Shown here piece after piece: positions 6,027 to 57,007 of a stretch of 64,000 bases of DNA. The stretch is from positions 1 to 64,000 of the forward strand of contig NZ_JANIBO010000002.1 of assembly GCF_024506395.1 (NCBI RefSeq). Reading direction: 5' to 3'. Position numbers and translations under genes: made by a program. Position 1 is the stretch's first letter, and every line of letters begins with the position of its first letter. This DNA comes from Cetobacterium sp. NK01 (lineage in GTDB: Bacteria > Fusobacteriota > Fusobacteriia > Fusobacteriales > Fusobacteriaceae). The notes under the pieces are model-generated. The model saw nothing but the letters and a program-made list of their open reading frames with translations. It was not told the origin of the DNA and did not search any database.

Positions 6027-7617
6027 AGCAGTTATACCTGCAGCAGGATTAGGAACTAGAGTGCTACCTGCAACAAAGGCACAACCGAAAGAGATGGTGC
6101 GACACGTTGCATAGTGAAAAGCTATGCCACATCTAGAGTTTAGCGATAAACTAAAGATGGAGAACTATATAACTGAGAGGTGGAATGAAGGAGTAACGTC
6201 CTGAAACGCCTCCCCTAATACTCCGATATGCGATTAAATTCTAACTAAATTTAGTGGTGTAAAGCTCGGTGAAGTCGGCTGAGAACTACTCCTAACATGT
6301 TATGATGAGGAAATGCGAACCAGAGGCGGTCGAGGTAGTGATAGGTCGGGGGTCGAATCTATATGGTGAGAATGCACTGTGGTGCTGACAAAGTTACGAA
6401 TGTACAGGCCTAGAATGGGATATACCAGAAATGGTATACTTGGAAAAATCCAAGGTAAGTGGCGATGAGTAAGTATCGTCTCAATGAAAGTCGCTATATT
6501 GTTAAAGGCAATATCAAGCTTACAGGTCTAGAGTAACCACCTAAGTAGATTCTATGATAAGTTATATGGAACGTGGAAAGCGAAGCACAACAAAACAGCT
6601 TAGTTAGAGCGTTGGTGAATATAAGTTAAATAAACTTTAACGAAATTTCTTTAGCTTTGTGAGAGTAGGGGCATAGTACCAATGAAACCATGATAATAAG
6701 TGGTGGAGGGATAGCCCCAAGTCAGCATTTATAGATGTTGATGGAACGCCGTGTGCGGTGAAAGTCGCACGCACGGTGTGGGACGGGGGAAAACTTAGAG
6801 ATAACTTCAAAGAGTTACCTATCGTCATTTGGTCATTGTTGATAAACCTTCACTTCAATATATTGTTGAAGAGCTTGTAGAATCTGGAATAGAAGATATA
6901 CTAATTGTAACAGGAAGAAATAAAAATTCCATTGAGGATCATTTTGATCACTCATTTGAATTAGAAAACACTTTAGCTAGACATGGAAAGGATGAACTAT
7001 TAGAAAAAGTTGAAACTATTCATGGAATGGCAAATATATACTATGTTAGACAAAATCATCCATTAGGACTAGGACATGCAATATTAAAAGCTAAAAGCTT
7101 TATAGGAGACGATCCTTTTATCATAGCTCTTGGAGATGACATTATGTATAATCCAGAGAAAGAGGTAACAAAACAACTTATAGAAAAATACGAGGAGTAT
7201 GGACACTCTATAATTGGAGTCCAAGAGGTTGAACCTAAAGATGTATCAAAATATGGAGTTATAAAACCAGTGGAAGAGTTAGATTCTAAAACTGTAACTA
7301 TGTGTGACTTTGTAGAGAAACCAAAATTAGAAGAAGCACCATCATTAAAGGCTTGTTTAGGAAGATATCTATTAACACCAGATGTATTTCAATATTTAGA
7401 AAATACAGCTCCTGGAAAAGGTGGAGAGATCCAATTAACAGATGGAATTTTAGCAATGATAAACGACAATAAAAAAGTACTCGCATATAATTTTGATGGA
7501 ATAAGGTATGATATAGGAAATAAGATTGGATTATTAAAGGCTAATATAGAGTTTGGTTTACGTAATAATGAAACTAGTGAAGACTTAAAAAAGTATCTAA
7601 AAAGCATAAAAATATAG
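6010..7617 (+). CDS. galU: UTP-glucose-1-phosphate uridylyltransferase, split by a group II intron
   Basis: Makes UDP-glucose from UTP and glucose-1-phosphate. Exon 1 is 6010-6096 and exon 2 is 6829-7617, separated by a 732-nt intron. Exon 1 encodes 29 residues including the nucleotide loop AAGLGTR and ending ATKAQPKEM. Exon 2 restarts with [15 protein letters not shown], exactly where GalU proteins continue. Joined in frame they give 291 residues, the normal length, with LGDDIM and the FVEKP segment intact. The start has an AGGAG site 7 nt upstream and overlaps pgm by 17 nt. Without splicing the reading frame stops at 6112-6114 after 34 residues. A strong SD-led start in exon 2 is absent (it would begin with TTG), so function should depend on RNA splicing. 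Confidence 0.9.
6097..6828 (+). mobile_element. ORF-less group II intron inside galU
   Basis: The element begins GTGCGAC, the standard 5' end of bacterial group II introns (GTGYG), directly after the galU ATG codon 29. It ends at ...CGTCAT, where galU resumes in phase 0. Its GC content is visibly higher than the neighbours. A 34-nt domain V is at 6746-6779 and a domain VI with a candidate branch adenosine at 6821, 8 nt from the 3' end, follows. No reverse-transcriptase/maturase frame is present (the only ORF, 63 codons on the other strand, is unrelated), so mobility and perhaps splicing need a protein encoded elsewhere. CGTCTC at 6478-6483 could pair with the last six exon-1 bases GAGATG (one G-U) as EBS1-IBS1, but I could not fold domain I to confirm it. 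Confidence 0.92.
6746..6828 (+). ncRNA. group II intron domains V and VI
   Basis: Domain V folds into the canonical 34-nt hairpin: lower stem ACGCCGTGT with GCACGGTGT (one or two G-U pairs), two-base bulge AC at 6769-6770, upper stem GCGGT/GTCGC and GAAA tetraloop at 6760-6763. The catalytic triad position reads CGC. Domain VI closes with GACG (6782-6785) and CGTC (6823-6826), with an unpaired A at 6821. Confidence 0.9.
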
Positions 7618-28738: not shown

Positions 28739-28783
28739 TGAAACTTGGAATTGGATTAAAGTTTTACAAATAACATAAAAATT

Positions 28784-28850
28784 TTCTCATATATATTCAT
28801 AATATGGATGAATGTCTCTACGACCTACCGTAAATAGGTCACTATGAGAA
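28784..28850 (+). promoter_or_regulatory. purine (guanine-type) riboswitch aptamer
   Basis: P1 TTCTCATA (28784-28791)/TATGAGAA (28843-28850); P2 ATTCAT/ATGAAT around loop AATATGG; junction GTCTCTAC; P3 GACCT/AGGTC around loop ACCGTAAAT, identical to the known L3 sequence. The specificity base in J3/1 is C (28842), as in guanine rather than adenine aptamers. One junction base differs from TTTCTACC (U48 to C). Confidence 0.85.
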
Positions 28851-28901
28851 GAGACACACATATATTTGAAATATATTTTTATATTTTCATCTGATTTATT
28901 G

Positions 28902-46190: not shown

Positions 46191-46511
46191 TTAGTTGTAC
46201 ATTACTCTTACAGTAACTTTTCCTTTGAAATTATTTTCTATTGAACTTAAAGCTAATTTTCCATCTATATCTTTTTTATTATATAAATTGATATTATCAT
46301 TGTGAAGTTCTTTAATATAAACTCTAACTGCTTCCTCTTTAGAATTTTCTAACTTAAAGCTAAGTTCATTAGTGTTAGCTATTTTTTTTATAGCTATTTT
46401 TGTAGGAGTTATTAAATTTAATTTTGTATAGATATCAACATTCATATCTTTTGAACTAAAAGTCAAAATAAAATTTAGTATAAAAAAGATAAAGAAACAC
46501 AAACTCTTCAT
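46191..46511 (-). CDS. small secreted protein under its own c-di-GMP riboswitch
   Basis: A 106-residue protein with a signal peptide (hydrophobic residues 4-19, then SKDMN) and a beta-rich mature part (NELSFKLENSKEEAVRVYI, then KGKVTVRVMYN). No family is recognised. It lies at the distal end of the pilus locus but has its own c-di-GMP-I aptamer about 70 nt upstream, so its expression should follow c-di-GMP separately from the operon. The strand pattern could fit a minor pilin or a periplasmic helper. Confidence 0.6.
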   Translation of the reverse strand: MKSLCFFIFFILNFILTFSSKDMNVDIYTKLNLITPTKIAIKKIANTNELSFKLENSKEEAVRVYIKELHNDNINLYNKKDIDGKLALSSIENNFKGKVTVRVMYN

Positions 46512-46582
46512 TTTAATCCCCCTTAAAATTTATTAATAAAATTAATAATAAATTAAAATAAAGTAGTTATACTTCTTTATAC

Positions 46583-46648
46583 TGCAACTGGCTACCATTT
46601 TAAAGGCCCTATAGCTTTGCGTCACACAGTTTCCTATGTTTTGCCTTT
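46583..46648 (-). promoter_or_regulatory. c-di-GMP-I (GEMM) riboswitch, distal copy
   Basis: Reverse strand: GGCAAAAC, GGAAAC loop region, the diagnostic GACGCAAAGC, GGGCC, then TAGCCAGTTGC pairing GCAA with TTGC (P1). A short stem ATAAAG/CTTTAT with T-rich tail follows and could be the expression platform. The gene controlled is the 106-residue secreted protein. It lies in the 222-nt gap 46512-46733. Confidence 0.85.
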
Positions 46649-46733
46649 ATTTTAATTTTTACAAATTAATCTACAATAAAATTTTACTATATTGACCTTT
46701 TATTTGTCAATAGTAAGGGAATTATTACTTAAT

Positions 46734-47165
46734 TTAGTTTTGACCAGTTATACCTATTCCAATTTCGTTAAATATAATAATATCTTTGTTTAAAATAGAT
46801 TTAGAGTCATTGGGAAGTTCTTTAAAAATTATATAACTTTTATAGCTTTCATTTTTTTTTAATATATTTCCCTTATTTTTAAACACTAGTTTTATTATTT
46901 TTTCCTCTTGTGGTTTTAACATTATAAACTTTGGAAAACATTCAAGCATTAATTCTAAACTATTATTTTGAAATTCTATAGGAGTTTCAAAATATGGAAG
47001 GAGTTTAACGGTCTTATTACCATTATTCATTAAGTGAATATTTGTAACAGAGTTATGAGTTAAATTTAGCTCTATTTTCGTAGGGTTTATAGATAAATTA
47101 AAGTCAGTTGATAACAAAATCGTAGAAAAAAATAGATAAATTAATAAAAGTTTTATATAAAACAC
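46734..47165 (-). CDS. small pilus-chaperone-like periplasmic protein
   Basis: A 143-residue secreted protein (signal peptide to about residue 19). The mature part looks like the first Ig domain of a PapD-type chaperone: LSINPTKIELNLTHNSVTNIHL (strands A-B), then FPKFIMLKPQEEKIIKLVF, the region equivalent to the G1/F1 edge. The second domain is missing. It follows the EAL gene by 18 nt as the last gene of the c-di-GMP-controlled operon, before the second aptamer. Confidence 0.6.
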   Translation of the reverse strand: MFYIKLLLIYLFFSTILLSTDFNLSINPTKIELNLTHNSVTNIHLMNNGNKTVKLLPYFETPIEFQNNSLELMLECFPKFIMLKPQEEKIIKLVFKNKGNILKKNESYKSYIIFKELPNDSKSILNKDIIIFNEIGIGITGQN

Positions 47166-47183: not shown

Positions 47184-47891
47184 TTAAAAAAGCAACTCAT
47201 TTTCTAAAATAGGTTCCCCAATATAATATCCTTGAATAAAGTCTACTCCAATCTCCTTAATAAAATCAAATTGCTCCTTTGTTTCAATTCCTTCAGTTGT
47301 TATTTCATGTTTCATGGTTTTTAAGAGAGCTACAATTCCTCTATAAGTTTCTTTTCCTAAAGGACAATCGATATTGTTTAATAAACTTCGATCTATTTTA
47401 ACCTTATTAATTTTAGTTTTTAAAAGAGTTTCTAAGCTAGAATTCTCTATAGGGAAATCATCTATTGCAACTTTTATTCCTAATTTATGTAGTTGATTTA
47501 CTCTGATGATAAGTTTTTCATAATCTAGATTCCCTCGTTCTGTCAATTCAATCTCTAAATTGGATAAATCACATTTTAATAAGTTTATTTTTTCTATAAA
47601 CTCATCCATCAATATAGTTAAAGGTGATATATTGATTGCAATTTTTTTACCTTTTTTTAAATATTTTTCTATTTTTTTTAAGATTAGAAAATCTAATTGA
47701 TGTATAATGTCTAATTTTTCCAAAAAATTTATAACTTTAATTGTTGAAATAAGATCATTTTCCTTATTATAAAATCTTGATAATACTTCAAAACTTTTAA
47801 CCTCTCCCTCTAAAGAATAGATTGGTTGAAAAGCAACTTTTAAAATATCTTCTAAGTTAAATTTTAGAAGATTCTCCAATTGTTTATTCAT
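47184..47891 (-). CDS. EAL-domain c-di-GMP phosphodiesterase in the pilus operon
   Basis: A 235-residue cytoplasmic single-domain EAL protein, expected to hydrolyse c-di-GMP to pGpG. The needed residues are visible: E in SFEVLSRF (EVL version of EAL), N in INISPLT, E in LEIELTERG, DD in AIDDFPIENS, K in VKIDRSLL, E in TTEGIET and Q in QGYYIGEP. No sensor, GGDEF or membrane part. I start at ATG 47891 with GGGGGA; a TTG at 47903 is less likely. It sits 26 nt after the adhesin gene, inside an operon that starts with a c-di-GMP riboswitch, so it can provide negative feedback. Confidence 0.9.
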   Translation of the reverse strand: MNKQLENLLKFNLEDILKVAFQPIYSLEGEVKSFEVLSRFYNKENDLISTIKVINFLEKLDIIHQLDFLILKKIEKYLKKGKKIAINISPLTILMDEFIEKINLLKCDLSNLEIELTERGNLDYEKLIIRVNQLHKLGIKVAIDDFPIENSSLETLLKTKINKVKIDRSLLNNIDCPLGKETYRGIVALLKTMKHEITTEGIETKEQFDFIKEIGVDFIQGYYIGEPILENELLF

Positions 47892-47917
47892 AAAATCCCC
47901 CAATTTTAATATATTTT

Positions 47918-50900
47918 TTAATAACTATTTAAATAAACATTTAAATGAATTTGTTCTTTATGTTCACCCTCTAAAATGCTATTTTGAGTTTCGATAAGTT
48001 GTCCCTCTAAGATAAAATAGCTGTTTTCACCACTATTCTCTATTATTTCATCGCTTATAGAGAAATTTCCAGCTTTGATTATAGAATTACCATTTTTTAA
48101 ATCCACTTGTGGTTTTGCTAGTTCTAATTTTAATGTATTTCCAGATAAATTTTTTATAGTTATTTTAGAAGTTGCAGTTTTTGAATTATCACCTTTTAAA
48201 ACAGTTCCAAAATCTAAATCTTCTGCTGATATTAATTCAAAATTTGAACCAGGAGTTTTTAAGTTTACAGTGTACTCTCGTCTTGTTAATCCAGATTTTT
48301 CTGTGTGTATAATTTTAAGTATATGAGAACTTCCAACCCATTTTATAAGAGAAAGAGAGACTAGTCCATTATTTTTATAGATAAAATCAATATCTAGTTT
48401 AGAGTTTTGAATACTTCCTGTAGTATCACCTAAAGGATTCATATCCATAGAGATCAGTTTACTACTCTCATAAAATATCTCTAATTTTCCATCATTTAAT
48501 TCTAGACCATTAATAAATTGTCCAGAGTTTAAATTAACTTCTACACTAGTATTAGTAGTGTTTCCAGCAAAATCAAAATCAACTTTTTCACCTTTGTTAT
48601 AACTATTTTTAAAGTCTATCACAATATTATTGTTTTTTACAATATCTTTAACTACTGTTAGAGTTGGATAAGAGACCTTAACAATTGGAGAATCCTTTAG
48701 AAATTTGTAATTATTATCAGACCATTCTCCTTGAACAAATGCTATTTTTTCATTAGTGTTAAGTTGAACTCTTTCAGAGTTTATCCCCCTAATATACGTT
48801 AAAAAATCTTTTTTGTCCTCATTTTTAATTTTTATAGATAAGTTTCCACTGACTTCCTCTCTACCACTATTGGAATAAACCCAAATACCTAAATTAGAAT
48901 TATCATTACTTTTTTGGATTCCCCCTTGAATAGAAGATGTTCCCTCTAACAATCCACCTGTTGAATTTTTAAAATATGGATAAGTTTTAAGAGTATCATT
49001 GTAGTTAGCAACATAAGTATCTCTGTTAATTAAAGTGGAATTCCCTGCAAATAAATAGCCTTTTGGAGCATAATCTTTTTCACCTAGAGCAATCATGGGA
49101 ATTTGTATATCATTTGGTGACATCTTTACTTGCTGGAAATGAACAAATCCAGCTTCTCTATCTAAGTCACTTGTTTCTATTAAATCTTTTTCTCCAATCT
49201 CTAAATTGTTAAGCTTGTGGTCAGAGGTAAAATTGCCTGTAGTATTACTATTTCCAGTTTTTTTCTTAAATTTAATTTTTGGATACAGTATCTCTCGAAT
49301 TTTTCCTAAATTCCTATTAGGAATATAAATATGCGTGTTGCCGTTATTTGCTGAACTTGGAATTAAAGAGATTTTATAACTATCCCCATATGGGATTTCT
49401 ACAATATCTTCGTTTTTTGTGTAAGCATAATCTCGTATTGATTTTAAAAAGTTACTAGGAATAGCAATTTTTATTTCAGCGGTAATACTAGCTTCAGCTG
49501 ATTTTTTTTCATATGTTGCCAAAGTAACAGATCTTTTATCATTATCAATTTGGTTTTCATTCCCTAGGCTTTTCCTAAATAAAAAGCCTTTTTTATTTAT
49601 TTCTGTTAAATATGGATAAATAGATTTATTTGTACCAATATTTATAAAAATATTTTGGATTTCATTAAAGTTAGCATTTATTGTGGTATTTTTATCTTTA
49701 TTTATAAATCCTTCATACCTCCAATGCTCTTCGTTACCTAAACCAATTGTAGGAGTTAAATCTATTCCGTGATTTCCAAAGAGACGGTTAACAGAAACTC
49801 TGCCTAAAGATGCAATATAAAAATTTTTAGAAAAATTTTCTATTTCTTTTTCATCTATTATATGATCTTTTAAAGCATTAACATTATAACTAAAATAATC
49901 TTCGTATTTATCTTTTATTTTGCCAATGTAAACTTTAGGGTATGTGAGATTAATTGTTTCATCATCTATATTTTCAGTGGGAATATCATAATATCCATCT
50001 CCCTTTGAACTTCCTACGGCTAAAGTTATTTGCTCATCAGTATCAAGAGGTTTATAAGGTATTTTTATTAATTCGTTTTCTCCTGCTGGAATTTGGCTTG
50101 CATAACTTTTCATCTGTTCAATAGTTGAAGCATCTATTTTAAAGTTTAATTCCACCTCTATGAATTCATTTTCATGTGTTTCATAAGCACCTATAGCTAT
50201 TTTATCTAAAAGATTTTCTTCAATATTGTGATAATAGATTTTTTTGCTTACTCCCATATTTGTTGAAGGGCTTGAGCTTTTATATCTTAATTGTGGTATC
50301 ATTTTTCCTTGAATAGATGATGAATTAAATGATATTGCTATAACTTTTTGAGAATTCTGAACAGGTTGATTTCCAGGATGTTTTTCTTTTTCCCAAATAT
50401 CATCTTCCCCCAAAGTGATAACTGGAAATAACTCAGACTCTTTATTGGCAATTTGTTTAAATTTTATAGTTATAGGCTCTGATATATAATCTCCTAAATG
50501 GTTAGGATCAATTATTATATCCTTATAATTAATAAGGTCATATGAAAAATCCTTTAATGAACCGATGCTATGAACTTGAGGTTTTTTGAATTCAGCTTTA
50601 TAAATTTTTTCAACTGCTCTTGTTTTATTATTAAATATTCCTAAATAAAGTGTTTCAGGTTTTAAATCATAGGATACTTCCAAAATTTTTTCTCTGTCTT
50701 TTTCTACTAGGTTATAGCTTATATTTTTTAATTTTGTTTTTTCAATATTTTTCTTCATATAAGTTGCAGTATTGTCTAAATTTTCTAAAATAAAAATATC
50801 ATAACTAGTACTATCTATTATAAGTTTCATTTTTTCTGCTGCTTTTTTTAAATCTTTAAAATCAAAGATTATTTTCTTCTCACCCTCATATATTACCCCA

Positions 50901-51055
50901 GTTATTTTCTCTGTTTTTATTTTTAGAACTTCAATATCTAAATTAGCTTTTTCTCTTTTAGGAAGAGCCTCTAGTGTTGTAACTTCATTTTTCGAAAAAC
51001 TAGTAAAAAAAATACAGATGAAAAGAACTAAATTAATTAAAACTCTATTTATCAT
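47918..51055 (-). CDS. large secreted adhesin-like protein of the pilus operon
   Basis: A 1045-residue exported protein (signal peptide up to about residue 21). After an N-terminal region of 185 residues, three related modules of about 220-240 residues can be seen, each opening with a VI(T/A)LGE.D/IGLGNEE/MIALGEKD motif, continuing through a long strand-rich part (YPYLTEINKKGFLF; YPYFKNSTGGLLE) and closing with a strand such as YPKVYIGKIK, YPKIKFKK or YPTLTVVKD. The last 250 residues end in a separate beta domain. It overlaps the preceding subunit gene by 11 nt. A tip adhesin or major surface-exposed subunit is the likely role; no named family is recognised. Confidence 0.6.
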   Translation of the reverse strand: MINRVLINLVLFICIFFTSFSKNEVTTLEALPKREKANLDIEVLKIKTEKITGVIYEGEKKIIFDFKDLKKAAEKMKLIIDSTSYDIFILENLDNTATYMKKNIEKTKLKNISYNLVEKDREKILEVSYDLKPETLYLGIFNNKTRAVEKIYKAEFKKPQVHSIGSLKDFSYDLINYKDIIIDPNHLGDYISEPITIKFKQIANKESELFPVITLGEDDIWEKEKHPGNQPVQNSQKVIAISFNSSSIQGKMIPQLRYKSSSPSTNMGVSKKIYYHNIEENLLDKIAIGAYETHENEFIEVELNFKIDASTIEQMKSYASQIPAGENELIKIPYKPLDTDEQITLAVGSSKGDGYYDIPTENIDDETINLTYPKVYIGKIKDKYEDYFSYNVNALKDHIIDEKEIENFSKNFYIASLGRVSVNRLFGNHGIDLTPTIGLGNEEHWRYEGFINKDKNTTINANFNEIQNIFINIGTNKSIYPYLTEINKKGFLFRKSLGNENQIDNDKRSVTLATYEKKSAEASITAEIKIAIPSNFLKSIRDYAYTKNEDIVEIPYGDSYKISLIPSSANNGNTHIYIPNRNLGKIREILYPKIKFKKKTGNSNTTGNFTSDHKLNNLEIGEKDLIETSDLDREAGFVHFQQVKMSPNDIQIPMIALGEKDYAPKGYLFAGNSTLINRDTYVANYNDTLKTYPYFKNSTGGLLEGTSSIQGGIQKSNDNSNLGIWVYSNSGREEVSGNLSIKIKNEDKKDFLTYIRGINSERVQLNTNEKIAFVQGEWSDNNYKFLKDSPIVKVSYPTLTVVKDIVKNNNIVIDFKNSYNKGEKVDFDFAGNTTNTSVEVNLNSGQFINGLELNDGKLEIFYESSKLISMDMNPLGDTTGSIQNSKLDIDFIYKNNGLVSLSLIKWVGSSHILKIIHTEKSGLTRREYTVNLKTPGSNFELISAEDLDFGTVLKGDNSKTATSKITIKNLSGNTLKLELAKPQVDLKNGNSIIKAGNFSISDEIIENSGENSYFILEGQLIETQNSILEGEHKEQIHLNVYLNSY

Positions 51056-51491
51056 TTAGATTTCCCCTTTTCTTGTATTGAGAGACAATAATAGGAATAT
51101 ACCCAACATACTCACCTTCAATATCAATAACTTCACCTTTATTAATATCTTTACGATCTAAGACAGCGTAAAAAGCGAATTGCTCTCTCTCTTTAGCTAT
51201 GATTATCTCTTTTTTAGATGATTCCATTCCTAGCTTTTCCACTTTTAACCATTTTCTACGATTGGTCATAAGGTTATATTCTGGAAATTCAAACATTATT
51301 TTTTTCCCAAAATCCTCTTTTTTATTATCTGTAAAAACTTCTATAATCCCTTTTCCTAAAACTTTCCCTTTTTCTAAATGTGTAGTATTAATACTTTTAA
51401 ATCTCATAGGCTCAGCTATTTTAACTTTTATTTCACTAAAGGTTAAAACTTGAATACTAAATAGAAGCACAATTAAAATTAATTTTTTCAT
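51045..51491 (-). CDS. secreted small pilus-locus protein (148 aa)
   Basis: Signal peptide (MKKLILIVLLFSIQVLTFS), then a 128-residue beta-rich mature part (SEIKVKIAEPMRFKSI, ENTTHLEKG-like turn, VLGKGIIEVFTD). No domain is recognised. Its 3' end overlaps the adhesin start by 11 nt and its 5' end is 2 nt from the preceding gene, so it is strongly tied to them in translation. The size and position between usher and adhesin fit a minor subunit or adaptor. Confidence 0.6.
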   Translation of the reverse strand: MKKLILIVLLFSIQVLTFSEIKVKIAEPMRFKSINTTHLEKGKVLGKGIIEVFTDNKKEDFGKKIMFEFPEYNLMTNRRKWLKVEKLGMESSKKEIIIAKEREQFAFYAVLDRKDINKGEVIDIEGEYVGYIPIIVSQYKKRGNLNDK

Positions 51492-51493
51492 AT

Positions 51494-52045
51494 TTATTTC
51501 CCATCCTTAACTTCCACAGTTATATAAACTCTTTTTTTATGTAATCCCTCTTTTGTAATATTTGAACCATCAATACTTAATACGTTGTCATCAACAATTT
51601 TTTTATTAATATATTTAGGCGAGTATATTTTAGTATCGATATTGCCATCATTATCTAAATCTAACTCTTTTTGAGAATATTTAAGCATGTAGTGATCTTT
51701 TTTTTCAGGTTCTTTATTCATCTCGATTTCAAATGGAATATCAAGTTTTTGATCATCAATAATCATAGCCTTTATTTCAATATCTGATATGATCTCTAAA
51801 GGTACTATGACTTTAACTTTACTTTCCATCATAACTGTAGAGATTTTTTCTAAAATCCAAACATCTTCATTTTCATCAACTTTTTCTACTGGAGAAGCAG
51901 GAATCAGTGGAATCATAGGTGTGGCTATACTTGGATTAGCAACTGGAGTTCCCATTGTTTCATCAGAAGGGAGCGTCATTATTCCCTCTGATGAAAAAAC
52001 TATTAGTTGCGTTAACATATAAAAAAGTATTAATAAAACCTTCAT
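51494..52045 (-). CDS. secreted small pilus-locus protein (183 aa)
   Basis: Signal peptide to about residue 19; then a proline-rich linker (residues 24-54 with PSDETMGTPVANPS and IPLIPASP) and a beta-rich domain ending VYITVEVKDGK. A DLDNDGNIDTK stretch (near 132-142) resembles a calcium-binding loop. No family recognised. It follows the usher gene by 15 nt. A minor pilin with a flexible N-terminal arm is plausible; the proline-rich arm is unusual for donor-strand subunits. Confidence 0.58.
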   Translation of the reverse strand: MKVLLILFYMLTQLIVFSSEGIMTLPSDETMGTPVANPSIATPMIPLIPASPVEKVDENEDVWILEKISTVMMESKVKVIVPLEIISDIEIKAMIIDDQKLDIPFEIEMNKEPEKKDHYMLKYSQKELDLDNDGNIDTKIYSPKYINKKIVDDNVLSIDGSNITKEGLHKKRVYITVEVKDGK

Positions 52046-52060
52046 AATATTACCCCTATC

Positions 52061-54667
52061 TTAATTTTTTAAAAGTACTATTCCCTTTTCAGTAAACTCT
52101 AAAACAATTTCGTTTCCTTTTTCTTCTGTATATTTTAAATCTATTTTTTCTACTAAAGGCGGTATATTTAATTCTTCTCCAAGATAATCTACTTCAATAC
52201 TGTAGCTTTCAGTAAATAATCCACTTACATAAAAAATTCCATTTTCATCAGGAATGGTATTTTCTAAAACTTTTCCCTCTTTATCTTTTATTTTTATAAG
52301 TGTGTTATCATAAATATCTGTTATGTCTTTTTCACTTAAATTTAATTTTTTATCAACTATAAATGATCCTGATAGAGTCATCATAGCTTTTAGTGGAATA
52401 AATGCTTCGATAGTTCCTGTATTTGTTCCACGAACTGCAATTTTATTGTTTCCTAAAGAGTATGAAGGTTTTCTAATTTTAGGATTTAAATCATATAGAA
52501 TTCCATTTGGAACTCCAAAGAAATAGGCTTGGCCATTTTCAGCTGTTACCTCTTTTTGAGAGCCAATTTTAATCTCTACATTATCAACTAATTTTTCTCC
52601 AGAATCATATATGTTGTTACTATTTTCATCTACAAAAGCTATAACTTTAACTCTACTTGAATTCATACTTTCAATATTTCTAGTTACATTTTTCAAATCA
52701 ACAACTTTATCAACTCCAAGTTTGTAGTTTTGTGCACCGTTTTTTCCAGCAAACATTCCTGCACTTAACCAGTTGTCATAGTTTAAATCAAATCTAAAAG
52801 TAAATCTTGATTCATCTCTATTTGAATAACTGAACTCTATAGAAAAATCTAAGGTGTCCCAAAGATTTTTATTCATAAGTGTTAAGACACTTTCAAAATC
52901 TTTTCCATTCTCGCTCCACCTGTTGTTTAGTCTAGTATTAACGTAGTGTAATCCTGTGTAATAAAGATTGATAGAATACTCATCTCCATTGTTATTTCCA
53001 GTACTATATTCCCCAGTAACAAGAAGATCTCTCATTAAATTTTTATAAACTGAAACACCAACATCATAGTTTCTTTCAGTTTTGTCATTATAGTAATCAT
53101 TTATATAGTAATTTGTATCTATAGAGTAACCATTTCCAGGGTTATATTCTATTGTGTATGATCTTGCTGTTTCAAGATCATAGTATAAACCAAAGTTTTG
53201 ATGTTCTGTTCTTACTTTAAAATCATATATTTGTATTTGAGCTTCTAAGTATTCCTTAGTTCTTTTTTCTTTTCCTCTTTCTCCTCCTAAAACTAAAGTA
53301 TATGGCATTCTAAAAACATAGTTAGAGTAAACAGCTTCAGCATTAAAAAGATCTATATATTGAGTTCTATCATTAGAAGTATCAATACTTCTTATATATC
53401 CAGTTCCTAAAGTTAGATTTTCTGTAAGACCATAGTATATATTTCCTTCGCTAGCATATTTTTTAGAGTTATGATCCTCTCTTATTTTGAAATCATACTC
53501 AATCTCTCCTCTATTTTGCTGTCTAAAATCAACAGCAGTATTGATATCTATTGTATATATTTTTCCATTTGGTTCATGTACTCTTAAAGTATATTCTCTA
53601 TCATTTTTTATTTCTGAGTTTTGAAACTCTACAATACCATTTTCAGCATATTGAACTGCAATGGGAAATCCAAGATACAGCAGTTCAACTCTACTACCAA
53701 TAGGAACATTCTCTCTAATGACAATATCTTTTCCCACGTAGAAATATCCCTTTTCTTTTTTTAAACTAAGGCCTAGTTCACGTTCCACTGCTCCATAACT
53801 TCCAAATTCAAGTGAGTGATTTTTATAAATTTCAGGGTAGTAAAGGTAAGTATCTCCTAGTGTTTTTTCTTTTATATCATAAGATGTTGTAAATTCGCCA
53901 AAGAGAAGATTACCTTGATATTCTAAATCTCCAGTCCATCCTGTTTGGAAATTCTCTCCCTTATTCTTTGATAACTCTCCTTGAACATTGAATCTCATAT
54001 ATCCAATATCAAAGAATCTATTTTTATTTGTATAGACAATATCATTTTTATTCTCTTTTGTAAGTTCGTTATCTAATCTATTTTCTAAAGAGGTATCAAT
54101 TTCAAAAGGAGTGCTAAATGTCAAGTAAGTTTTAATAAGTAATTTTTTAGGATCTATCTCTAAAGATTCTGTGAAAATCTCTTTAAATAATCCAATCTCT
54201 ATATAGATCTCGTTTCCATCTTTAAATACTTCTGATTCTTTAAATTGTATTTTTCTATTGGGATTGCTTAAAGTTGCAGTGTGTTGTGTCCAATTTATAT
54301 CTATATTATCAAGGTCTTTTCCAACTTTCATGGAAATCTTATTTTTTTCAAAGTCATAGTTTTTAAATCTAATTATCTCTAAAAATTCTATTAATGGAAT
54401 ATAATCATAACCATCTTTTTTTAAAAGTTTTAAATGAGTTCCTCGAACTCTTCCGTTAACTATTACAGAATAAATCATCTCATCATTTATAAGAGTAGCA
54501 CCTTGTAATTCAGCTTTTAAAATTTCATATTCCTCTTCTGAGATGAGATCTTGAGCTTTAAAAGCATCTAAATCCTCTAGGGAGTAGTCTGTTGAATATG
54601 AAGTTGTAAATAGAATCAATCCGACACTAAGAAGATTCTTTAAAAATCTACTATCTGTTTTTTTCAT
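52061..54667 (-). CDS. outer-membrane usher of a chaperone-usher pilus
   Basis: An 868-residue exported protein matching usher length (about 800-880). After a signal peptide it has an unusual N-terminal SHOCT-like helical piece (LEDLDAFKAQDLISEEEYEI), a strand domain, a long barrel of alternating aromatic strands (YSNRDESRFTFRFDLNY, YDVGVSVYKNLM), a plug-like region (GSRVELLYLGFPIAVQYAENG), and at 670-760 an SD-rich Ig/carboxypeptidase-like domain (DENSNNIYDSGEKLVDNV) as in ushers' C-terminal domains. It exports and assembles subunits delivered by the two chaperones. It lies 22 nt after chaperone 2. Confidence 0.78.
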   Translation of the reverse strand: MKKTDSRFLKNLLSVGLILFTTSYSTDYSLEDLDAFKAQDLISEEEYEILKAELQGATLINDEMIYSVIVNGRVRGTHLKLLKKDGYDYIPLIEFLEIIRFKNYDFEKNKISMKVGKDLDNIDINWTQHTATLSNPNRKIQFKESEVFKDGNEIYIEIGLFKEIFTESLEIDPKKLLIKTYLTFSTPFEIDTSLENRLDNELTKENKNDIVYTNKNRFFDIGYMRFNVQGELSKNKGENFQTGWTGDLEYQGNLLFGEFTTSYDIKEKTLGDTYLYYPEIYKNHSLEFGSYGAVERELGLSLKKEKGYFYVGKDIVIRENVPIGSRVELLYLGFPIAVQYAENGIVEFQNSEIKNDREYTLRVHEPNGKIYTIDINTAVDFRQQNRGEIEYDFKIREDHNSKKYASEGNIYYGLTENLTLGTGYIRSIDTSNDRTQYIDLFNAEAVYSNYVFRMPYTLVLGGERGKEKRTKEYLEAQIQIYDFKVRTEHQNFGLYYDLETARSYTIEYNPGNGYSIDTNYYINDYYNDKTERNYDVGVSVYKNLMRDLLVTGEYSTGNNNGDEYSINLYYTGLHYVNTRLNNRWSENGKDFESVLTLMNKNLWDTLDFSIEFSYSNRDESRFTFRFDLNYDNWLSAGMFAGKNGAQNYKLGVDKVVDLKNVTRNIESMNSSRVKVIAFVDENSNNIYDSGEKLVDNVEIKIGSQKEVTAENGQAYFFGVPNGILYDLNPKIRKPSYSLGNNKIAVRGTNTGTIEAFIPLKAMMTLSGSFIVDKKLNLSEKDITDIYDNTLIKIKDKEGKVLENTIPDENGIFYVSGLFTESYSIEVDYLGEELNIPPLVEKIDLKYTEEKGNEIVLEFTEKGIVLLKN

Positions 54668-54689
54668 TCTCCATCCCCCTAAATAGATT

Positions 54690-55412
54690 TTAGATTTTGA
54701 TTTTCATGATTGTAACTTCGTTTTCTTTTATTAATAAAGTATTGTAATTTTTAATATTTTTAAAAATAATATCATCCTTAATCTCTTGATTAAACTCTTT
54801 TAAATCTAGTTCTTCATTTATTAAAAATCTTTTATTCCCCAGTAAAAAACTATTTTTATTTTTTGAATCACTTAAATAAAATGAAAATGTTCCACGTCTA
54901 TTTCCAGTGTTTTTTATTTTTCCAAAAAACTCTAGTTTTTTATTTTCTTTTTTTATAACTAAGTTTTTCAAAGTTAAATTGGTTTTTAGATCTCCTACAT
55001 ACCCTACAATTTCCATTTTAAGATTTGTTAAAATTTTAAGAGTAGAACTCTTATTTTTTATCTCTTTTTCAGTTACAACGGGCATCTCTTTAATACCTAA
55101 AACTGTTGTGTATTCTCCTGATTCACTTCCCTTAGGTGCTTTTATAAAAACTTTTAAAACACCCTCTTGCCCGGGTTTTAGGTTAAGGGTTTTCGGGTAA
55201 TACTCCACCCAGCTAGTCATATCTTTTCCTTTTTTACTTTTTTCCACAGAGAAAATATATTTAATTGAAGTATTAGTGCCGTTATATAGGTAATACTCTT
55301 CAATTTCCCCAGAACCACCTATATTTTTATCAAAGTTTACAGGATGAATATTAACATATGAGTATACCTTAGAGAATAGAAGCATAAGTATAATAAAGAT
55401 ATTTTTTTTCAT
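54690..55412 (-). CDS. periplasmic pilus chaperone 2 (PapD-like)
   Basis: A 240-residue periplasmic chaperone with signal peptide (cut near SYV). Strand pattern VNIHPVNFDKNIGGSGEIEEYYLYN and MTSWVEYYPKTLNLKPGQEGVLKVFIKAPKG match the first Ig domain; residues after 130 form the second (KLEFFGKIKNTGNRRGTFSFYL). The basic residue usually in the cleft (Arg8 of PapD) is not obvious. It is a paralogue of chaperone 1 at 56140. It holds subunits by donor-strand complementation before passing them to the usher, the next gene. Confidence 0.78.
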   Translation of the reverse strand: MKKNIFIILMLLFSKVYSYVNIHPVNFDKNIGGSGEIEEYYLYNGTNTSIKYIFSVEKSKKGKDMTSWVEYYPKTLNLKPGQEGVLKVFIKAPKGSESGEYTTVLGIKEMPVVTEKEIKNKSSTLKILTNLKMEIVGYVGDLKTNLTLKNLVIKKENKKLEFFGKIKNTGNRRGTFSFYLSDSKNKNSFLLGNKRFLINEELDLKEFNQEIKDDIIFKNIKNYNTLLIKENEVTIMKIKI

Positions 55413-55422
55413 AGTTGTTCTC

Positions 55423-55456
55423 CTTAAAAAAGCCTCTAAACTTCTTAGAGGCTTTT
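55423..55456 (-). terminator. attenuating terminator after the pilin gene
   Basis: Reverse strand AAAAGCCTCTAA-GAAGT-TTAGAGGCTTTT (12 bp, perfect) with T run, in the 59-nt gap between pilin and chaperone 2. A partial stop here would leave more pilin mRNA than usher mRNA. Confidence 0.8.
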
Positions 55457-55471
55457 AAATTTTTAGTTATC

Positions 55472-56119
55472 TTATTTTGAAGTGGCCTTATCAACAACTA
55501 GAGCTGGGTTTTTACTAAATTTAACGCTTAATGTTGATGTATTTGAATAACTGCCTTCATCTAAATTAGCTTGTTGAAATTCAGTAGCCTCTATTTTTGA
55601 GTTTAAATCAACTTGTATATGCTTTATATTTTTATTTGTTGAAAATATATTAGTGTGAGTATTTTTATTACCAGCTAAAGATAAGGTAAGACCTTTTGAA
55701 GTAGCAGAAGCAGCATTAAAAACTCTTCCAGTTAGTGTATGCGCCATACGGACATTATTATCTGAATGAGTTAAATTATTGTGAGGACTTGTAAGAGATA
55801 TTTTTAGCATAGTATTGTCAGGGAAATTGTTATCATTTGCTCTTTTTATATAAACAGACCTACTTACTTTAGAAGGAGATGTACTTCCCTTCATAATTGT
55901 TCCATGATCTAATTCAATTGATTTTATTGCTGTTACTCCCTCTGGTCTTTCTGTTATGATAAGTCCTGAATCAACTATAAATGCCTTTGTTGTAATATCA
56001 ATTTGATTCTCACCACTAGCTCTAGGGGTTCCAGTTGATTGTGATGGTCCAATTGGCGTTGATGGTACGGCCATAAGTGTTGCTGATAATGCTAATAATC
56101 CTAATAAAACCTTTTTCAT
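55472..56119 (-). CDS. probable major pilin subunit
   Basis: A 215-residue secreted protein with signal peptide (cut after LMA, VPSTP begins the mature part). Low in aromatics and rich in Ser/Thr/Asn strands (ITTKAFIVDSGLIITERPEG, VSRSVYIKRANDNNFPD, and the C-terminal STLSVKFSKNPALVV), which is typical of pilin-like beta sandwiches. No Cys. The gene is between two chaperones and is followed by an attenuating terminator, the arrangement expected for the most abundant subunit. A named family cannot be assigned. Confidence 0.62.
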   Translation of the reverse strand: MKKVLLGLLALSATLMAVPSTPIGPSQSTGTPRASGENQIDITTKAFIVDSGLIITERPEGVTAIKSIELDHGTIMKGSTSPSKVSRSVYIKRANDNNFPDNTMLKISLTSPHNNLTHSDNNVRMAHTLTGRVFNAASATSKGLTLSLAGNKNTHTNIFSTNKNIKHIQVDLNSKIEATEFQQANLDEGSYSNTSTLSVKFSKNPALVVDKATSK

Positions 56120-56139
56120 TTTTTTCCTCCTTATATTAT

Positions 56140-56850
56140 CTATATTTTTAGTTTGTTGATAGTTCTATAGTTTATATCTTCGTATATCTCTATTTCGTAA
56201 GGATGATTTTTTTTCATTCCATCTAACTCTAAAGTTATCTTTTTACTTTCTCCTGCATATATACGCCCTAAAGTATTTCTAACTAAAGTATTGTTTTTAC
56301 CCTTAACTTGTATCCCAAACTCTACCCCTCTTTTATCAGATGGATTTTTTATAGCAATATCTAATTTTGTCTTTCCATTTTCTTCATAAACTTTATAGTT
56401 ATCTATTTTTATGAACGGTTCTAAATTTCCAACATATCCAATCATCTCTATAGATGCATTTATTCTAATTCCTACATTGGACTTTATTCCTGTTCCATCC
56501 TTTTTTATACTTGGAACTGATATGAGTGAACTATCTAAGTGAAAACCATATTCACCATCTTTTGATTCTTTTGGTGCTTTAGCAAAAACTTTTAAAAGCC
56601 CAGTTTCTCCTGGTTTAACTGTTAAAACTTTTGGATAAAATTCAACCCATTGGCTCATATCTCCTCTTATGTCACTTCCAGGAGATACAGCAAACTTATA
56701 TCTTAAAGTTTCTAAGCCGTTATTAGGAAAATAAAACTCTTGATACCCTTCACCGTTATCTATTCTTTTTTCAAATCCATCTGGCATTATGTGAAAACTG
56801 TAAGAAATGATATTTAAAATTATAAAAAAAAGTGTAATTAATTTTTTCAT
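56140..56850 (-). CDS. periplasmic pilus chaperone 1 (PapD-like)
   Basis: A 236-residue periplasmic chaperone. Signal peptide to about residue 18, then SFHIMPDGFEKRIDNGEGYQ; strand-rich Ig domain 1 with MSQWVEFYPKVLTVKPGETGLL and FAKAPKESKDGEYGFHL; domain 2 begins near KIDNYKVYEENGKTKLDIAI. It shares the WVE(F/Y)YPK...LKPG pattern with chaperone 2 in this locus. It is the first gene after the c-di-GMP riboswitch and the terminator. The subunit served is not known; the pilin is the next gene (20 nt). Confidence 0.78.
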   Translation of the reverse strand: MKKLITLFFIILNIISYSFHIMPDGFEKRIDNGEGYQEFYFPNNGLETLRYKFAVSPGSDIRGDMSQWVEFYPKVLTVKPGETGLLKVFAKAPKESKDGEYGFHLDSSLISVPSIKKDGTGIKSNVGIRINASIEMIGYVGNLEPFIKIDNYKVYEENGKTKLDIAIKNPSDKRGVEFGIQVKGKNNTLVRNTLGRIYAGESKKITLELDGMKKNHPYEIEIYEDINYRTINKLKI

Positions 56851-56881
56851 GTTGCCCCCCGTTATAAAGTTAAAAATTTAT

Positions 56882-56926
56882 AAAAAAAAGTTGCACCTAT
56901 TGTATAGCGATACAACTTGTGCAACT
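56882..56926 (-). terminator. riboswitch-controlled terminator before the pilus operon
   Basis: Reverse strand AGTTGCAC pairs with GTGCAACT, with an inner hairpin TTGTAT/ATACAA and a run of seven T. The 5' arm AGTTGCAC is also the 3' strand of aptamer P1, so aptamer folding and terminator folding exclude each other. Confidence 0.88.
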
Positions 56927-56990
56927 GGCTGCCATTTAACAGGCCCTATAGTTTTGCGTCCTCAAATTTCTTTGAGTTTGCCATATTTTA
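56919..56990 (-). promoter_or_regulatory. c-di-GMP-I (GEMM) riboswitch of the pilus operon
   Basis: Reverse strand: GGCAAAC, tetraloop region AAAGAAATTT, diagnostic GACGCAAAAC, GGGCC, then GCAGCCAGTTGC, with GCAA/TTGC forming P1. Ligand binding would hold the TTGC strand and block the terminator, giving an ON switch. It lies in the 402-nt gap 56851-57253 between the pilus operon and the GntR gene; the rest of the gap holds promoters only. Confidence 0.9.
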
Positions 56991-57007
56991 TTTTATGATT
57001 GGCTATA

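Follow-up and report, generated by a model that had tools for sequence, protein, structure and literature searches.

A pilus-like gene run of the fish-gut bacterium Cetobacterium, expected to be under c-di-GMP control, carries a gene for the type of enzyme that destroys c-di-GMP. In the window, the 64,000-nucleotide stretch of Cetobacterium sp. NK01 DNA analyzed here, nine genes lie in one unbroken minus-strand run headed by a c-di-GMP-I riboswitch (RS1), and the last but one encodes a single-domain EAL protein, a putative c-di-GMP phosphodiesterase (PDE). Negative feedback through this riboswitch-driven operon is the best reading of the arrangement, and we consider it probable. With RS1 of the ON type, c-di-GMP would allow transcription to continue past the leader into the pilus operon, which is of a divergent chaperone-usher type; read-through would carry it on to the EAL gene. 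The PDE made from the same mRNA would then hydrolyze c-di-GMP, the level would fall, and pilus expression would thereby limit itself. The sequence itself shows the aptamer, a terminator competing with it, the gene order, its conservation, and the intact ligand, metal, and catalytic residues; read-through to the EAL gene, hydrolysis, and the fall of c-di-GMP are inferred from these.

Organization of the pilus-like operon

The run consists of genes for a chaperone-like, a pilin-like, and a second chaperone-like protein, a divergent usher-like protein, two small secreted proteins, a putative adhesin, the EAL protein, and a PapD_N-like protein. All intervening genes are on the minus strand, as are all window features given below, and the intergenic gaps are 2 to 59 bases or overlaps. 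The sequence-only reading had placed the EAL gene inside a riboswitch-headed operon, which was borne out by the uninterrupted run and the RS1 score; that reading lacked the last gene, with which the run extends past the EAL gene down to 46734.

The first chaperone-like protein (56140 to 56850; 236 amino acids [aa]) is secreted and is a paralogue of the second (54690 to 55412; 240 aa); weak PapD_N matches were seen in 4 of the 17 members of its family. Between them lies the putative major pilin (55472 to 56119; 215 aa), assigned from its position, a signal peptide recognized by eye, and fast divergence, with orthologues at 50 to 53% versus 87 to 93% for neighboring genes. The usher-like outer-membrane protein (52061 to 54667; 868 aa) gave no match to Pfam, NCBIfam, or PDB profiles, and a single-sequence AlphaFold model was unusable (pLDDT of 31). 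Its tentative assignment comes indirectly through a sister family, which it matches with a probability of 100 and which in turn matches Escherichia coli ushers (probability of 74, E value of 2.9e-5). Two small secreted proteins follow (51494 to 52045, 183 aa; 51045 to 51491, 148 aa), the former after the usher gene in most related operons. The large putative tip/adhesin protein (47918 to 51055; 1,045 aa) was recognized by its position, its fast divergence, and a size that varies among relatives. The run ends, behind the EAL gene (47184 to 47891; 235 aa), with the secreted PapD_N-like protein (46734 to 47165; 143 aa), whose PapD_N match (1e-3) is under the cutoff and which matches E. coli chaperones in hhalign with a probability of 63.

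Riboswitches of the genome

RS1 (56917 to 56992) matches the Rfam family RF01051 with 62.3 bits (E value of 8e-10), above the gathering cutoff of 35 bits, and was recovered again by a whole-genome riboswitch search. Its expression platform (56883 to 56930) contains a terminator, AGTTGCAC..GTGCAACT, followed by T8. Sequence and folds show that this terminator and the basal helix of the aptamer have AGUU in common. The whole terminator folds with −17.2 kcal/mol; minus the shared bases, the fold has −10.4 kcal/mol and stands apart from the U-tract. Because the leader terminator shares these bases with the aptamer, c-di-GMP should switch the pilus-like operon ON, and the competition supports what had been proposed from the letters.

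A second c-di-GMP-I aptamer, RS2 (46580 to 46655; RF01051, 65.1 bits), comes after the nine-gene run and heads a separate small gene for a 106-aa secreted protein (46191 to 46511). It is preceded by a promoter-like sequence, TTGACA-18-TAAAAT (46681 to 46710), with 11 of 12 consensus bases. The genome has six c-di-GMP-I riboswitches in total, some of them ahead of DUF4402 pilin-like genes, and eight GGDEF domains as a potential source of c-di-GMP synthesis. Two PDE-family genes are found among the 21 genes of its riboswitch-headed operons (P of ~0.002 under random placement in this genome). A further candidate on contig C1 (1366285 to 1377126), in which a GGDEF-EAL gene lies 11 kb downstream of a riboswitch, was rejected as an operon, since antisense genes lie between.

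The other riboswitches raise a different use for the EAL protein: the pilus operon could lower global c-di-GMP and shut other riboswitch targets or pili, as proposed for the action of Klebsiella FimK on type 3 fimbriae (PMC9487511). The six riboswitches of the genome, some of them ahead of pilin-like genes, fit such cross-talk. However, the same ligand governs the operon itself, which with a shared pool could not avoid limiting its own expression, and we regard cross-talk in place of self-limitation as very improbable.

The EAL protein

The open reading frame spans 47184 to 47903 when taken from the first possible start, a TTG; an ATG with a good ribosome site lies at 47891. The Pfam EAL match has 158 bits (cutoff, 31.3; E value of 2.5e-46), and the Pfam search gave no other credible domain. 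The protein retains the full set of 13 metal, substrate, and catalytic residues associated with hydrolysis of c-di-GMP (Q22, E35, R39, N87, E115, E118, D144, D145, K165, D167, E200, E203, and Q220). The structural model is confident (pLDDT of 91.6), and its closest structural matches are EAL enzymes (TM scores of 0.84 to 0.90). A single-domain EAL protein with its catalytic residues, as first described, is thus confirmed, except that loop 6 differs. This loop, reported to be essential for EAL activity (PMC12943098), is a noncanonical DDFPIENSS instead of the usual DDFGTGYSS, and DDFG was present in 82 of 83 general EAL domains scanned. Since loop 6 lacks DFG(T/A)GYSS, we file the protein as an EAL-family protein with putative PDE activity.

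Loop 6 also bears on whether the protein is instead an effector or trigger enzyme, one that binds c-di-GMP with little or no hydrolysis and works, for instance, through contact with a partner in control of pilus assembly or transcription. Known EAL proteins include degenerate receptors as well as PdeR and PdeL, which are active "trigger PDEs" (PMC5052742); the DDFP of loop 6 is clade specific and common to all seven members of the EAL clade, and the protein is a single domain without a sensor. However, the metal ligands and the catalytic glutamate and lysine are all retained, whereas BvgR, an EAL protein judged inactive, has lost 12 of the 13 residues (PMC11537037). The parallel with the HD-GYP operon described below favors turnover as well. 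On balance, an effector role appears rather unlikely.

Distribution of the EAL clade

The seven clade members score 369 to 399 bits against a next best of 145, and 12 of the 13 functional residues are invariant across them (P of 5e-7 against the column background). A search of 61 family genomes found no member outside the genus, and a search of genome_contigs found none apart from one Cetobacterium metagenome-assembled genome. The survey of relatives suggested earlier, for riboswitch, usher, and EAL gene together, showed that the combination recurs: all seven members are housed in usher-type clusters, five of them in riboswitch-headed operons (one operon, in genome G006, is split over two contigs). 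The gene order of the window operon recurs in relatives, and the EAL subclades track operon type. In one species the same operon (L104) has both riboswitches without the EAL gene, and several related riboswitch-headed pilus operons also do without it; the EAL gene is therefore accessory to the pilus operon.

Within the operon, a terminator-like hairpin with T6 lies in the gap between the pilin and second chaperone genes (55423 to 55456; 12-bp stem, −15.1 kcal/mol) and is probably a partial terminator. Hairpins at the same position were found in related operons, and with one this strong the distal genes need read-through. The hairpin may hold EAL expression low, which suggests that the position of the EAL gene affects dosage rather than timing. 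No terminator was found in the adhesin-EAL gap in three orthologous operons. Near the EAL start, no promoter match exceeded 9 of 12 bases and promoter-like sites were no commoner than in shuffles. A promoter of its own, which would have uncoupled the EAL gene from the riboswitch, was rejected on these grounds.

These data also allow an assessment of the EAL gene as a passenger, sitting incidentally behind the adhesin gene, with its expression due to a promoter inside the operon or to slight read-through and with no feedback on the pilus. Its absence from L104 and related operons would fit, as would the hairpin after the pilin gene and two clusters in which the EAL gene lies behind a serine recombinase gene, outside the pilus operon. 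Against this stand the usher-type clusters around every clade member, the short gaps and good ribosome sites that precede the EAL genes, the lack of a good promoter near the EAL start, and the low probability of two PDE genes in riboswitch-headed operons by chance. We consider a mere passenger quite improbable.

A second operon with an HD-GYP gene

The same genome has a second riboswitch-headed usher-type operon, on C1, whose first gene encodes an HD-GYP protein (HD_5 domain, PF13487, 1.3e-35) with intact HD, HHE, and GYP motifs (HDIGK and HHEKWDGTGYP). PapD_N is matched above the cutoff in this operon. Nine Cetobacterium species have the HD-GYP gene, in every case directly behind a riboswitch, and in one other genus it follows a riboswitch closely; the enzyme is sensor linked. 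Two unrelated PDE folds are thus used in one genome, and the proposed feedback principle extends beyond the EAL gene. More tentatively, at a little short of an even chance, a PDE of either fold in riboswitch-activated pilus operons of Cetobacterium and near relatives would be a selected principle, with the EAL enzyme ungated and the HD-GYP enzyme gated by a periplasmic solute-binding sensor.

At elongation rates like those of E. coli, about 9 kb of transcription amounts to a delay of a few minutes. The idea that the distal position of the EAL gene serves as a built-in time delay is weakened by the HD-GYP operon, which begins with its PDE gene.

Feedback and known systems

In an illustrative feedback model with arbitrary parameters, overshoot was seen in about half of the cases and oscillation in 5%. 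A pulse generator, as envisaged from sequence, is thus possible but not required. We expect the loop chiefly to brake or stabilize c-di-GMP, as a homeostat would, when a signal drives its level up, giving overshoot and partial adaptation, not a sharp pulse. As for the built-in negative feedback, the ON-type anatomy, the conserved arrangement, and the independent HD-GYP version speak for it; the altered loop 6 speaks against it and leaves the activity putative.

GEMM riboswitches that control PDE genes are already known, and so are fimbrial clusters that encode a PDE (Klebsiella FimK and MrkJ). In the Klebsiella type 3 system, c-di-GMP likewise activates a chaperone-usher fimbria and an adjacent PDE (MrkJ) lowers c-di-GMP (PMC3161979). 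There, however, the sensor is the protein MrkH rather than a riboswitch, mrkHIJ is convergent to mrkABCDF, and mrkJ is transcribed independently of mrkHI, whereas the Cetobacterium EAL gene apparently lies within the activated operon. FimK, too, is an EAL-domain protein whose gene is distal in a chaperone-usher (type 1 fimbrial) operon (PMC9487511), but it has an N-terminal HTH domain, unlike the single-domain protein here, and inversion of DNA, instead of a c-di-GMP riboswitch, switches the fim operon. GEMM riboswitches ahead of diguanylate cyclase or PDE genes, according to a review, similarly control genes that alter their own ligand (PMC3971182). Unlike in those cases, the Cetobacterium PDE gene belongs to an operon for a surface structure, and one genome employs two unrelated PDE folds. 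The type IV pilus operon of Clostridioides difficile is, as proposed here for Cetobacterium, positively regulated by c-di-GMP and under a riboswitch; it encodes a type IV pilus under a class II aptamer (c-di-GMP-II) rather than a putative usher-type pilus under c-di-GMP-I, and the sections consulted mention no PDE gene in it (PMC11477304; PMC6200980). Literature searches found nothing on point for Cetobacterium with c-di-GMP and no paper combining a riboswitch, negative feedback, and a phosphodiesterase gene.

The pilus-like family described here is not recognized as usher dependent by present profile libraries. If the feedback reading is true, sensor, output, and brake stand on a single transcript, so that one mRNA would encode a compact negative feedback loop acting on a second messenger. 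Such loops would have evolved two or more times within one genus, from unrelated enzymes. Cetobacterium would then offer a natural test bed for how self-limiting c-di-GMP responses influence adhesion in little-studied fish-gut anaerobes.

Results

The window belongs to a 610-kb contig, and the whole genome is 3.1 Mb. Its usher-type operon is encoded on the minus strand and is headed by a c-di-GMP-I riboswitch (RS1, 56992-56917; 62.3 bits, Rfam), with intergenic gaps of 2 to 59 bases in the run downstream. A chaperone-like gene (56140-56850) is followed by a pilin-like gene (55472-56119), a second chaperone-like gene (54690-55412), and a gene for an 868-aa usher-like protein (52061-54667). Next are genes for two small secreted proteins and a 1,045-aa adhesin-like protein, then the gene for the EAL protein, a putative c-di-GMP phosphodiesterase (PDE; 47184-47891), and lastly one for a PapD_N-like protein (46734-47165). 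On the same strand, a promoter-like TTGACA-18-TAAAAT separates this last gene from a second c-di-GMP-I riboswitch (RS2, 46580-46655; 65.1 bits), behind which a 106-aa secreted protein is encoded separately from the RS1 operon. The window's plus strand also holds group II intron RNA matches (6160-6828) and a purine riboswitch aptamer (28767-28864).

Downstream of RS1, AGTTGCAC-hairpin-GTGCAACT and the T residues after it form a terminator (-17.2 kcal/mol), whose first four bases, AGUU, are in the Rfam alignment also the 3' strand of the RS1 basal helix (AACU/AGUU). When AGUU is held by the aptamer, the leftover stem has only -10.4 kcal/mol and no longer adjoins the U-tract, so that, judging from sequence and fold, ligand binding should block termination and RS1 should be an ON switch. 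The orthologue in genome G008 (L022) has the same aptamer/terminator design. At RS2, no terminator built on its own aptamer arm was found; a weak A/U hairpin there is common to four orthologues.

Nothing terminator-like was found at the adhesin-EAL junction in the window, G008, or G006. Promoter-like sites near the EAL start reach at most 9/12, and shuffled sequence gives such sites just as often. The pilin gene is followed by a strong hairpin and six T (55423-55456, minus strand), placed before the second chaperone gene, and hairpins occupy the equivalent site in the related pilus operons L101, L103, L104, and L108 to L112; the form is kept while the sequence varies between operon types, the more distant operons having other sequences. 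We read it as a partial terminator, which would leave pilin abundant and all distal products, including the EAL protein, scarce.

The 868-aa usher-like family was not recognized by Pfam, NCBIfam, or PDB profiles and, searched alone, matched E. coli ushers with Prob 6. At the corresponding place, a sister family from a second operon of this genome gave a 146-column alignment to E. coli ushers (Prob 74, E 2.9e-5), which surrounds what we take to be the usher plug region. The sister family matched the window's family with Prob 100, and the two are clearly homologous. The usher assignment is an indirect one, and the operon is likely, not certainly, a divergent usher pilus.

Among 61 genomes of the family, the clade of the EAL protein has exactly seven members, well separated from the next EAL (369 versus 145 bits). 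The arrangement described in the sequence-only reading, an EAL gene within a riboswitch-headed usher operon, recurs in relatives, and all seven members sit in usher-type clusters. Three are in the orthologous operon (the window, G008:C125, and G006, where it is split over two contigs), two end a paralogous riboswitch-headed operon (G008:C10 and G005:C4; usher ~41% identical), and two are in clusters without a riboswitch (G002:C11 and C1, another contig of the window's own genome). In these last two, a serine-recombinase gene is followed directly by the EAL gene and then by a nucleoside diphosphate kinase gene; the link to the usher cluster is loosest at C1 because the usher gene is ~30 kb away. 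Phase variation through DNA inversion is possible in the recombinase-EAL clusters. Serine recombinase (Resolvase)-EAL pairs stand beside riboswitch-free usher clusters at L105:5176-8336 (minus strand) and L107:12030-16773 (plus strand), and short inverted repeats lie upstream of the C1 operon.

In phylogenetic trees, EAL and usher proteins both cluster by operon type. The EAL gene is accessory to the operon, since the G002 operon (L104) has both riboswitches but no EAL gene; it carries an IS21-type insertion (integrase and IstB; L104:10804-13082) that separates the pilin gene from the first chaperone gene. A c-di-GMP-I riboswitch directly precedes an EAL-containing gene also in G007, G009, G019, and G024, the last resting on a weak riboswitch match. 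At L112:5065-7188 (minus strand), an HD-GYP-like gene is divergent to an adjoining riboswitch-headed pilus operon without EAL.

The second operon of the window's genome (C1:1636576-1645431, equal to L126:2577-11432) is headed by a riboswitch at C1:1636576 and sits behind an ORF resembling guaB (IMP dehydrogenase). It encodes, in order, an HD-GYP protein with a periplasmic solute-binding sensor, SBP_bac_5, DUF4402, the sister usher family, MORN, and a PapD-like chaperone in which PapD_N is above cut-off. The operon is conserved across nine species of Cetobacterium. The HD-GYP orthologue occurs in nine species of this genus and always has the riboswitch directly before it; in one species of another genus, the riboswitch is a short way upstream, with one small gene in between. 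The HD, HHE, and GYP motifs are intact. Riboswitch-headed usher-type operons have thus been entered by PDE-family genes with two unrelated folds. Two of the genome's nine PDE-family genes (six EAL and three HD_5) fall among 21 riboswitch-operon genes, where 0.065 would be expected (P ~0.002, assuming ~2,900 genes).

The impression that all catalytic residues are visible in the EAL protein was borne out, with 13 of 13 kinds of activity-relevant position (PMC11537037) present, although this does not prove activity. Twelve of them are invariant across the clade (P 5e-7), whose other members are 47 to 83% identical to the window's protein; R39 alone varies, being replaced by K in the own-genome paralogue. 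An AlphaFold model (pLDDT 91.6; 44-row alignment) resembles EAL enzymes including MorA, MucR, and BifA (TM 0.84 to 0.90) and also the EAL domains of LapD and FimX (TM 0.82 to 0.84), which are known as inactive receptors, so the fold cannot decide activity. Loop 6 reads DDFP(I/M)xxS in all seven clade members, DDFG in 82 of 83 general EAL domains scanned, and DDFGTG in E. coli PdeH, a single-domain PDE. This loop is reported to be essential for activity (PMC12943098), and its alteration counts against activity of the EAL protein.

Discussion

In a delayed single-step feedback model with arbitrary parameters, overshoot above 1.5-fold occurred in 54% of cases and sustained oscillation in 5%, indicating only that a pulse is possible. 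The proposal that the distal position of the PDE gene provides a delay did not extend to both operons, because the HD-GYP gene comes first in its own.

GEMM riboswitches are known to precede DGC and PDE genes (PMC3971182), and riboswitch control of a type IV pilus is also known (PMC11477304). EAL proteins are encoded in fimbrial operons, as with FimK (PMC9487511), and the PDE MrkJ is encoded beside c-di-GMP-activated fimbriae (PMC3161979). In the literature searched, mostly outside subscription journals, we found no description of a riboswitch, pilus genes, and a PDE combined on one transcript, nor of this combination with two enzyme folds. We conclude that this arrangement is real and merits a bench test.
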